In this document: positions 3,232 through 35,428 of the stretch, in pieces
Layout of the letters: every line of letters starts with the position of its first letter
Position numbering within the stretch: position 1 is the stretch's first letter
Source of the DNA: a virus
Length of the DNA: 42,502 nt
Strand: one strand, 5' to 3'
Virus record (IMG/VR): IMGVR_UViG_3300048922_000076
Coordinates: 1 to 42,502 of that record
Translations under genes and position numbers: made by a program
Notes under the pieces: generated by a model
The model's database searches: none
Told to the model about the DNA's origin: nothing
Seen by the model: the letters and a program-made list of their open reading frames with translations, nothing else

Positions 3232-3566
3232 GGTTTAAATGCCTGCATAAAGGTCGCATCAAGGTTGTATTTTCCATTTCCCAGCGCGGTCGGCTTGTAA
3301 GTCTCACACCTGAAAAAACCAATCGATTCAAGGGGTGGTGTCCACAGAAAAGATTTTTTACCTGCATGTGAATCAAGGAAATTTTTGATTGCTGAAATGT
3401 AAGACTCGTTGCCGGTAAAACTTAACGTCCATTCCTGGCTTTTCGCATTTAAACCATCACCGGCAACCTGAGCGTAACCATCGCCAAACTGTGCCTTGCG
3501 AATACGAAATGTCGTATCCGCCTCCGCATTCAAGCGCGGGCACCATGTAAAAGTTTCAATCGCCAT
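3228..3566 (-). CDS. M: Minor tail protein M
   Basis: A 112-residue protein in the lambda M position between tape measure H and L. It has the typical M pattern: TFTWCPRLNAEADTTFRIR, then QFGDGYAQVAGDGLN, WTLSFTG and a C-terminal YNLDATFMQAF. M forms a ring of the tail tip complex on which the tube is built. The stop of H is only 3 bases upstream of the start, and the end overlaps the L start in ATGA. Length is normal for the family (lambda M 109 residues). Confidence 0.9.
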   Translation of the reverse strand: MAIETFTWCPRLNAEADTTFRIRKAQFGDGYAQVAGDGLNAKSQEWTLSFTGNESYISAIKNFLDSHAGKKSFLWTPPLESIGFFRCETYKPTALGNGKYNLDATFMQAFKP

Positions 3567-33325: not shown

Positions 33326-33354
33326 ATAATGCTACTTAAAGTAGAATAAATCAA
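33326..33354 (-). promoter_or_regulatory. pR with operator OR1 in the spacer
   Basis: Minus strand TTGATT (33349-33354), 17-base spacer, CATTAT (33326-33331). The palindrome CTACTT-A-AAGTAG (33332-33344) fills the spacer next to the -10, so bound repressor blocks pR directly. Confidence 0.8.
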
Positions 33355-33369
33355 CTACTGAAAATAGAA

Positions 33370-33412
33370 ATGACTATACTTGAAGTGGGTTGTAATCTTC
33401 TACCTATGGTAG
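33370..33412 (+). promoter_or_regulatory. pRM region with operators OR2 and OR3
   Basis: OR2-like ATACTTGAAGTGG (33376-33388) matches CTACTTNAAGTAG at 10 of 12 positions. OR3-like CTACCTATGGTAG (33400-33412) is a perfect palindrome with 9 of 12 and covers the cI start codon at 33406. A possible -10 TGTAAT (33391-33396) with ATGACT upstream would start transcription at or next to the ATG. Confidence 0.55.
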
Positions 33413-34089
33413 AAGAAGCGAAATATAAAGATTTCTCAGAACGACTGAATGTTCTCCTTGCTGAGAAGAACGTTACAGTGACTGATCTGGCTAAATTCAG
33501 TGGCGTCTCATATGAGATGGCGCGGCGTTACACGCTGGGCACAGCAAAGCCAAGGGATGAAAAAATGCTTAAAATTGCCGACCAGCTTTCTGTTTCTCCG
33601 GCCTTTCTCGATTATGGCGTTGATGCCGCCGGTAACTCCACGCGTTCAAGCCCGACGGTTACCCTAAGACAGTTAGAAGTTTTCGCCTCCGCAGGAAACG
33701 GCTATATAAATCATGAGTTTCCCGCGATAGTATCTGCCATCGAAATCCCTCAAGACAAAATTTACGAATTATTCGGCAGGAGTTCTTTGGAAGGGGTCAG
33801 GCTTATTAACGTAGATGGTGACAGTATGATGCCAACGCTGAACCCGCGAGATCTCCTGTTCATTGACACCCGCATTGACCATTTCAATGGCGATGGCATA
33901 TACGTTTTCAACTTTGAAGAATCCACATTTGTTAAGCGTCTTCAAAAGGTTAAGGGAAGAAAGCTATCTGTGCTTTCTGATAACGATAAATACCCATCAT
34001 TCGAAATTGAACCGCATGAAATGAGTGAGCTATACATATTCGGCAAACTTATCAAGCAGTTGCCCTTAAAATTTAACGACTTCGCATAA
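33406..34089 (+). CDS. cI: CI-type repressor with S24 autocleavage domain
   Basis: 227 residues from the ATG at 33406. The N-terminal HTH is VTDLAKFSGVSYEMARRYT, then KPRDEKMLKIADQLSVS. The C-terminal LexA/S24 part has the cleavage region VFASAGNGY (Ala-Gly), the Ser in VDGDSMMPTLNPRD and the Lys in STFVKRLQ, so it is SOS-inducible by RecA. No ribosome site precedes 33406 or the alternative 33370. A leaderless message from pRM, as for lambda cI, would explain the former. The gene is followed by a strong terminator. Confidence 0.92.
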   Translation: MVEEAKYKDFSERLNVLLAEKNVTVTDLAKFSGVSYEMARRYTLGTAKPRDEKMLKIADQLSVSPAFLDYGVDAAGNSTRSSPTVTLRQLEVFASAGNGYINHEFPAIVSAIEIPQDKIYELFGRSSLEGVRLINVDGDSMMPTLNPRDLLFIDTRIDHFNGDGIYVFNFEESTFVKRLQKVKGRKLSVLSDNDKYPSFEIEPHEMSELYIFGKLIKQLPLKFNDFA

Positions 34090-34130: not shown

Positions 34131-34182
34131 CGTCTAAATTTCAACAGATTAAACAATAATCCGCTTTATCAAACCAATTTTT

Positions 34183-34224
34183 CTACTTTTAGTAGTTGAT
34201 TTATTCTACTTCAAGTAGCAATAT
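34183..34224 (+). promoter_or_regulatory. pL with operators OL1 and OL2
   Basis: TTGATT (34196-34201), 17-base spacer, CAATAT (34219-34224). OL1 CTACTTCAAGTAG (34206-34218) fills the spacer; OL2 CTACTTTTAGTAG (34183-34195) abuts the -35. The design copies pR, confirming a paired-operator switch. Transcription should start near 34231. Confidence 0.8.
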
Positions 34225-34596
34225 TGATTCACCAGCATAACGGGAAGAACACTGGGGGGTTGATGAACTCACTTACCATAAACCCAGTATGACCACAGTC
34301 CCAGTGTTCTTCCCGTTGTGATGTGTACAAGCGTACTGCACCGCAGGCGGGAGGAAGACTGGAAATCGGCTGGGCGTCCACCATAACGCCAAAACCAAAA
34401 CCGAGCGGCCAGAAATAAGCAGGTGTAGCGCCCTGGTGTCACAACAGTACCCACATGAGAGCGCGTAGTTTTCTGTTGATTCTGGGGATGCAGATAGCAG
34501 TCATAGAATCATCCCAGTTCGTAAGACGCTTGCTTTGGTAAAAGCGTTAACCCGAACCACGTTGGCTGGGAGGTCAGCACACAACAGGTAAGAGCA

Positions 34597-34833
34597 TTGA
34601 TTGGAACGCGCATAGAAGCTTTGTTGTCTGCGCCAGTGGCTGGGGGTGAATCCAGCACAAACCGCGCGGCGGCCAGATCGGCGCCAGGTTACGCAGTGCT
34701 CTTTCCGTTGTGGCAAGCATCAGGTGATGGTCGGGTTCCCTACCCGATTGCGGGTTCAACTCCCGCCGCCCAATCAGATCGACGTGGAACCTCGATAATC
34801 GCTGTCTGTAGTTGTCTTTCGGCGGTGGCATGA
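34597..34833 (+). CDS. Possible small ORF inside the pL leader
   Basis: A frame of 78 codons from a TTG at 34597. It reads IGTRIEALLSAPVAGGESST, then APGYAVLFPLWQ and GDGRVPYPIAGSTPAAQSDR, ending LSAVA at a terminator stem. The composition is plausible for a protein, and Icd- or Ash-like small prophage proteins occur in comparable leaders, but I cannot match it to a family. The start is weak (TAAGAG upstream). The strong base pairing of the same DNA argues that the RNA may matter more. Confidence 0.25.
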   Translation: MIGTRIEALLSAPVAGGESSTNRAAARSAPGYAVLFPLWQASGDGRVPYPIAGSTPAAQSDRRGTSIIAVCSCLSAVA

Positions 34834-34895
34834 CTCTTCAACTTACCCAAGGGGGAGCGAAGATAATGTTCTGATCATGACCACCGCCAATTTTT
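34821..34895 (+). terminator. Terminator-like hairpin in the pL leader
   Basis: GGCGGTGGCATGA (34821-34833) pairs with TCATGACCACCGCC (34875-34888), one bulge, 41-base loop, followed by AATTTTT. If active it would stop pL transcription before the first gene unless antiterminated. Confidence 0.5.
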
Positions 34896-35002
34896 CGCAG
34901 ACATAGACAAGGGCCGCTGGCACCTACCCAGCACGCCCTGTGCATTACCGGCCGCCCTTGTCTATGTGTGTGAGTAGTTAACCAACTGAGAAGGAAATGA
35001 AC

Positions 35003-35428
35003 ATGTTTGGAATGTTTAAGAAAAAGGCGCGCAAAGCAGTCGCCGAAGTGAAAAAGATGGAAAACCGTGACGCGGTTGAAGCAACTGTTTGGGGCGCGTA
35101 CGCCATCGCATATGCAGACGGCACCTGTGATGCGAAAGAAATTGCTGTTCTGGAAAAAACCATCAGTGCTTTACCGGCTTTCTCCCCGTTCGCCGGAGAA
35201 GTTGCACAGATGAGCAGCAACATCCGCGCACGTTACGAAGCATCGCCACGCAGCGCAAACGCACAGGCCTACCGTGAACTGTCTGATGTCGCTGGCACTT
35301 CTGATGCTGTTGATGTCCTGTGCCTGTGTCTGGACATTGCCGATCAGGACGGCATCGGAGAGGAGGAGGAAGCCACTCTGAAGAAAATCGCTCAGTCCCT
35401 GCAACTGTCTTTAGACCAGTACTTATGA
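35003..35428 (+). CDS. TerB-like protein
   Basis: 141 residues from the ATG at 35003 (AGGA 7 bases upstream; the ATG at 34997 is too close to it). A basic start MFGMFKKKARKAVAEVKK is followed by the TerB-type helical domain: AYAIAYADGTCDAKEIAVLE and a second DIADQDGIGEEEEATLKKIA, the paired acidic loops that bind metal in TerB. Phage TerB proteins are linked to tellurite and phage-resistance modules, but the role here is unknown. It is the first gene of the pL operon after the leader. Confidence 0.8.
   Translation: MFGMFKKKARKAVAEVKKMENRDAVEATVWGAYAIAYADGTCDAKEIAVLEKTISALPAFSPFAGEVAQMSSNIRARYEASPRSANAQAYRELSDVAGTSDAVDVLCLCLDIADQDGIGEEEEATLKKIAQSLQLSLDQYL

Follow-up and report, generated by a model that had tools for sequence, protein, structure and literature searches.

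A noncoding pL leader composed of tRNA-like folds, long hairpins and a terminator unit, with an organisation resembling the dicBF region of the Qin prophage

The put RNAs of phage HK022 suppress termination in cis via the zinc-binding domain of the beta-prime subunit of RNA polymerase, P4 CI RNA and the C4 of P1 and P7 are RNA-based attenuation or immunity systems, and RprA is a host small RNA with its own promoter. An HK022 put RNA comprises about 70 nt with two stem-loops (PMC9378689). DicF is cut out of the dicBF transcript, by RNase III to a 190-nt form and by RNase E to a 53-nt form (PMC10448788); a study from 2016 detected no DicF counterpart among about 2,000 phage genomes and left the original phage role open (PMC5069750). 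Known copies of STnc100, or PasD, lie mainly in late regions (PMC12370729, PMC13192938).

Our analysis concerns a leader in a viral stretch of 42,502 nucleotides (IMG/VR record IMGVR_UViG_3300048922_000076), here called the window. This leader is flanked by a CI-like repressor on one side and terB on the other, and can be divided into the following features:

33370-34089, plus strand: CI-like S24 repressor, a profile match, just upstream of the leader
34178-34219, plus strand: left operator, two copies of TTNTTCTACTTNNAGTAG (direct repeat D3)
34196-34225, plus strand: putative pL promoter, TTGATT, 18 nt, AATATT, as read from the sequence
34231-34996, plus strand: leader, noncoding
34233-34323, plus strand: long hairpin H1 with 24-nt arms, 3' arm CAGTGTTCTTCCCGTTGTG (inverted repeat I1)
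34315-34445, plus strand: TLS-A, 131 nt, closed by GTTGTGA/TCACAAC, with four more arms or helices and a pseudoknot
34446-34579, plus strand: segment between TLS-A and H2
34580-34712, plus strand: hairpin H2 with arms CACAACAGGTAAGAGCATTG and CAGTGCTCTTTCCGTTGTG and a structured loop, a predicted RNase III site
34707-34775, plus strand: TLS-B, a cloverleaf with D-like, anticodon-like and T arms and the T-loop TTCAACT, as minimum-energy fold
34707-34895, plus strand: predicted processed RNA of TLS-B and T, 189 nt, the putative counterpart of the 190-nt DicF form
34788-34895, plus strand: T unit, single-stranded GCTGTCTGTAG, GC-rich hairpin (34821-34888) and T tract (34891-34895), a DicF/RprA-like 3' end
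34895-34973, plus strand: long hairpin H3 ahead of terB (inverted repeat I2)
34997-35428, plus strand: terB-like gene, the first of the left operon (PF05099 and phrog_632)

The operator on the pL side (34180-34224) recurs as an inverted repeat on the pR side (33326-33370) with 91% identity, and we therefore regard the region as an immunity region with its left promoter pointing into the leader. A strict consensus promoter scan of the leader region gave no match; from the putative pL promoter, the leader RNA would be expected to start near 34232. An earlier note on this DNA correctly recognised a TerB-like protein as the first clear gene product, but its start at 35003 is the second in-frame ATG, and the ATG of terB lies at 34997. 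The note's further claim that the pL operon lacks an N-like protein agrees with our profile scans: the main ORFs (TerB, RdgC, a YfdR-like protein, HNH, a DUF1233 excisionase and the integrase) and some of the very short ones, compared to PHROGs and Pfam, revealed no N family.

About 770 nt dense in inverted repeats and without a convincing protein had been described for this place, and our data bear this out: the 760 nt of the leader fold with -300.7 kcal/mol (z -4.06, none of 20 shuffles equally stable), and all of its ORFs are short. A coding leader was considered and rejected, because homologues of the modules carry indels whose lengths are not multiples of three, so that no protein frame is conserved across the region. 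Compensatory changes, in turn, are abundant in the stems of TLS-A and in the arms of TLS-B, and so neither of the two outcomes that the note named as refuting its reading was observed. The leader is not unusually long, as had been supposed, since leaders in the same place measure about 600-2000 nt in prophages of Klebsiella, Citrobacter, E. coli and Rahnella. Among the single modules, folding is most distinct from shuffles in H1 (z -6.9) and H3 (z -6.7), followed by the T unit (z -2.9) and H2 (z -2.2). The energy of TLS-A alone does not differ significantly from shuffles (z +0.4), for which its pseudoknot is probably the explanation. No Rfam family matched the window at gathering score, including DicF, STnc100, RprA, tRNA and C4, and ARAGORN detected no tRNA in it. 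The leader is a modular RNA array with the order H1, TLS-A, intervening segment, H2, TLS-B, T and H3.

For TLS-A the covariation is decisive. Its helices were found by covariation in an alignment with 19 relatives, two of them after manual gap shifts. They comprise a closing stem of 10 bp, a short arm directly after it, two more arms, and a fourth arm that adjoins the closing stem at its 3' strand in the manner of a tRNA T arm; an anticodon arm is not evident. The four pairs of the pseudoknot interchange among relatives between CCCG/CGGG, CCTG/CAGG, CTGG/CCAG and CCGG/CCGG. In an unedited MAFFT alignment 95.6% of the cells in four helices are paired, with 55 double-change cells compared to 16 in shuffled data. 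In the model alignment both partners vary in 22 of 34 pairs and none of 500 shuffles reached the observed values in any measure, but this alignment is fitted to the model and the unedited one is the stricter test. Searching the loci with the covariance model gave 81 full-length copies, with E-values from 3e-41 for the best to 9e-30 for the weakest, and two further matches of weak, partial quality; the copy of the window scores 131.3 bits against model R1 (E 2e-32). In IMG/VR the TLS-A pattern is present in 109 stretches; in genomes it is credible for Enterobacterales only, the other matches looking like chance. No Rfam family matches TLS-A.

Some copies deserve separate mention. The loci L277 (794-955) and L313 (2433-2594) each contain a weak TLS-A-like match of 22.5 bits about 350 nt upstream of the full TLS-A, possibly a distant paralogue, and in the TLS-A copy of L289 (8727-8866) the first arm is extended to GCCTTAGCTAATTGGGC, resembling the D arm of a tRNA.

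For TLS-B the predicted fold and the covariation of its arms give a cloverleaf with a canonical T-loop. Among 23 relatives the anticodon-like and T arms covary, with five double-change pairs, a result seen in none of 500 shuffles. However, the acceptor stem is paired in just 77.6% of cells, and because it is so poorly kept we regard TLS-B as tRNA-like rather than as a tRNA. The D arm is less certain, since RNAalifold provides an alternative pairing in the D-like region. At a permissive threshold, TLS-B has weak matches to tRNA-like Rfam families. Relatives of the same slot come closer to true tRNAs: those of Serratia (L017, 46 bits), L239, L084 and Pantoea PdC23 (L008) exceed the tRNA gathering score, and a whole-locus scan found a canonical tRNA-Arg in the tRNA-like slot of L145. 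ARAGORN detected no tRNA in the 220 slots, or two with introns allowed, but as it missed the tRNA-Arg of L145 this is no full count.

For TLS-B together with T (34707-34895) about 40 relatives were found, in which the T unit is conserved. Its single-stranded stretch reads TTGCTGTGTGTAGTTGTCTT in most relatives and GCTGTCTGTAG in the window, where the T tract is short (AATTTTTC), and the 16-mer TGCTGTGTGTAGTCTT is present in at least 120 IMG/VR stretches. The T unit of Serratia L017 gives a sub-threshold match to RprA via its 3' part. Pairing of the window T unit with E. coli ftsZ is no better than that of shuffles (z +0.65), in a comparison in which the DicF control itself reached just z -1.4. 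The loop of the T hairpin (34850-34874) harbours a two-codon minigene, ATG TTC TGA, behind a strong ribosome-binding-like GGGGGAG. Almost every relative in alignment A4 retains it, and initiation at this site could allow a ribosome to open the terminator. In another phage, L033 (minus strand, about 1322 in the reverse complement) a T unit stands directly ahead of the same terB, and the other leader modules are absent. RprA 3' ends, that is TTGCTGTGTGTAGTCTTTGCCC followed by a terminator, are also found in unrelated phages: N4-like Erwinia phages, the jumbo phages Y3, SNUABM and JA11, and Stenotrophomonas phage BUCT708. An example is the one in Erwinia phage Ea9-2 (L418, 1503-1560).

The long hairpins H1 and H2 are related in their 3' arms (CAGTGTTCTTCCCGTTGTG and CAGTGCTCTTTCCGTTGTG). 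A copy of H1 in Rahnella (L010) is 97.6% identical, the loop domain of H2 is also present in L273, L316, L340, L365 and L321, and a piece combining the 3' part of the intervening segment with the 5' arm of H2 (34514-34601) is common to Pantoea PdC23 and Salmonella PAT1. The table of H-arm pairs is partly circular, because arms were picked by complementarity, and we left it out as proof. H3-type hairpins of several relatives (L007 at 3270-3300, L065, L084 and L023) carry GGGCTCATAACCC, a sequence identical to the initiator tRNA anticodon stem-loop down to the three G-C pairs. Within the loci, 22 of 31 occurrences of this loop fall in array regions, the copies being related and not independent, and the window lacks it. 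Upstream of TLS-A in L157, L181, L247, L264 and L307, hairpins that resemble T arms, for example CTGGTTCGATTCCAG and GTCCGTTCGATTCGGAC, lie within the loops of H hairpins.

BLAST searches of phages, plasmids and E. coli genomes left the leader as a whole unmatched and found separate pieces of it in different phages: 34303-34446 in elements of Klebsiella, Citrobacter, E. coli, Serratia and Leclercia, and 34694-34979 in Rahnella and Ewingella. In Rahnella pRAHAQ01 a joint at CCCGTTGTG links H1, with nothing in between, to the unit which in the window comes after H2. Leaders follow a common grammar, in which CACAAC...GTTGTG hairpins take turns with folds whose closing stem is GTTGTGnnn...nnnCACAAC, in many cases ahead of a terminator-like unit. 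The modules are swapped between phages at this common GTTGTG/CACAAC junction, and true tRNA genes can occupy the tRNA-like slot.

We counted 220 distinct arrays with sufficient upstream DNA and sought a repressor within 2.6 kb. In 128 of them a CI-like repressor lies upstream on the same strand; in the remaining 92 none was found within this distance. Arrays downstream of a repressor that bear TLS-A usually lead into RdgC, YfdQ/YfdR or ParB-like genes, and hence are pL leaders. Other arrays occupy quite different places, such as after the lysis genes (L265) or between the terminase and portal genes (PAT1), and those of phage-plasmids adjoin tRNA genes. The virulent-type phage Bas81 has an H hairpin and an STnc100-like fold followed by true tRNA-Ser and tRNA-Arg, and in the N4-like phage St11Ph5 a tRNA-Ala precedes a long tract of folds bearing T arms. 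This tract (L417, 1150-2560) extends over about 1.4 kb 3' of the tRNA-Ala, consists of tRNA-like T-arm folds and an H hairpin, and is hardly annotated. Sub-threshold STnc100 folds were seen upstream of tRNA genes and TLS-A in phage-plasmids of E. coli (L011, 1578-1695) and Leclercia (L012, 1225-1368).

At the gathering score DicF (RF00039) was not found in the window, and sub-threshold matches exist only in the T units of the relatives L113 and L084; these matches drew our attention to E. coli K-12 and its Qin prophage. There the dicBF region has an H hairpin with the arms CATAACGCGAAAGCGCATGG and CCGTGCGCTTCCGGTTGTGG, a fold with GTTGTGGC/GCTGCAAC as its closing strands, the DicF terminator unit and an STnc100-type fold, in this order. 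Counted on the K-12 sequence, the RNase III end of the 190-nt form would fall in the 3' arm of H. K-12 dicF and the window agree in having 189 nt between the H boundary and the last base of the T tract. For the 88 T units that have an H no more than 450 nt away, the distance has a median of 188, a second group at about 80 representing cases with T directly after H, and an H within this range is present for 64% of T units compared to 13% of random positions. The window leader shares with DicF both its place, in the transcript of an early left promoter downstream of a repressor, and a long GTTGTG-ended hairpin about 190 nt ahead of an intrinsic terminator.

We consider it rather probable that the leader represents a DicF-type array of noncoding RNA modules, which is processed to small RNAs that would most likely act in trans. 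Transcription from pL would yield a chain of H hairpins, tRNA-like folds (TLS) and the terminator unit T. By analogy with dicBF, RNase III may cleave each H hairpin where it ends in GTTGTG, after which RNase E may trim the pieces, perhaps along with RNase P at the tRNA-like folds. One product would be the 189-nt RNA of TLS-B and T, its 3' end made by the T terminator, and TLS-A would be another released RNA. A part of the polymerases would presumably pass T into terB-rdgC-...-int and give the mRNA of the left operon. In the infected or induced cell T would most likely serve as a base-pairing small RNA, probably bound to Hfq, because a conserved single-stranded stretch with a terminator resembles the 3' end of such RNAs; the tRNA-like shape of the other folds suggests that they bind a protein. 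Action in trans is favoured by the 92 arrays without an upstream repressor and by the arrays beside tRNA genes, and the 128 arrays downstream of a repressor leave room for a cis role at pL.

The earlier note had offered two readings of the leader, antitermination as by put and processing to a separate small RNA. The latter gains support from the homology of organisation with Qin dicBF and its published RNase III and RNase E products, the former does not. An RNA that modifies RNA polymerase in cis and replaces N would be in the right position directly downstream of pL, in an operon without an N family among the tested proteins, and the terminator-like T inside the leader must be passed to reach terB. 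However, local alignments of the leader with the HK022 early region score 21 and 22, below the shuffle maxima of 32 and 29, the units of the window are larger and different from put, and modules are also found away from pL, far from any early promoter, all of which makes antitermination quite unlikely. That T lies within the leader could also be read as attenuation or immunity, in which a processed leader RNA pairs with the nascent leader and halts the left operon at T; processed leader RNAs do serve in this way in other phages. We regard this as unlikely, since the window has no Rfam C4 match, a CI-like repressor and its operators are already present, and arrays outside leaders would be left unexplained.

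A different role is suggested by the resemblance to tRNAs itself: folds and arm hairpins could be decoys that bind, or are cut by, host enzymes targeting tRNAs (for example anticodon nucleases of defence systems) and so spare the real ones. The cloverleaf of TLS-B with its canonical T-loop, the T-arm hairpins in H loops, the initiator-like loop in H3 of relatives with its frequency in array regions, true tRNAs in the same slot and an expected early expression all fit such decoys, which would not exclude the processed, DicF-type array. Yet no partner is known, the fMet-like loop is absent from the window and its copies elsewhere are not independent, and TLS-A is without an evident anticodon arm, so that we hold decoys to be rather improbable. 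Finally, modules swapping at a common junction might represent merely a decayed tRNA cluster and recombination hot spot without a function of its own. This is contradicted by the covariation, as compensatory change many times over, in a pseudoknot too, is unexpected without selection on the RNA, and such a relic is very improbable.

Arrays with a covarying, pseudoknotted TLS-A occur in many phage records from several genera of Enterobacterales. A literature search that covered few of the subscription papers revealed no description of tRNA-like arrays in leaders of phages, and within the searchable literature TLS-A, the grammar of shared junctions and the presence of such arrays in further phages appear to be new. 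Faubladier and Bouche are said to have described prophage sequences related to dicF in 1994, which may already cover part of the relationship. It is possible, and we propose it tentatively, that temperate and virulent phages of enterobacteria share a combinatorial kit of tRNA-like noncoding RNAs, joined by interchangeable GTTGTG/CACAAC ends. Its RNAs would lie in early leaders or in clusters of tRNA genes, would be cleaved by RNase III, and would affect translation or tRNA-targeting host functions in trans; DicF and STnc100, and possibly also the 3' end of RprA, would then be known single members of the kit. If true, this would define a testable class of early phage RNAs, account for the 600-1000 noncoding bases that these phages maintain under pL, and tie DicF, STnc100 and the RprA-like 3' end into one modular system.

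Compared to the known systems, the leader shares with HK022 putL and putR a structured RNA right after pL in a phage without N, but differs in the larger size of its units, in fold and sequence, and in that arrays occur elsewhere too. With STnc100/PasD (RF02076) it has in common a fold closed by a long stem that is found in phages and adjoins T-like units in relatives, and STnc100-like folds fill the same slot in Qin, Bas81 and phage-plasmids; the window itself gave no STnc100 match, even at a permissive threshold. The T units of relatives resemble the 3' end of RprA (RF00034) in having TTGCTGTGTGTAGTCTTTG followed by a terminator hairpin, of which the window sequence is a diverged variant. 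The cloverleaf, the T-loop and the true tRNAs that occupy the same slot or flank arrays are features in common with phage tRNA clusters. Unlike phage tRNAs, the folds of the window are undetected as tRNA by ARAGORN or at the Rfam gathering score, and TLS-A is pseudoknotted.

The closest resemblance is to Qin dicBF. The Qin array is preceded by three small genes (ydfABC), and the window carries an extra TLS-A and two more long hairpins; its T unit differs from DicF in seed sequence, lacks the pairing with ftsZ and has no Rfam DicF match. By Rfam score and ftsZ pairing the leader is accordingly not DicF, but as a pL-proximal noncoding leader with predicted processing it would be of the DicF kind: in both cases a repressed early left promoter has a transcript in which a hairpin, a tRNA-like fold and a terminator follow one another in the same order.
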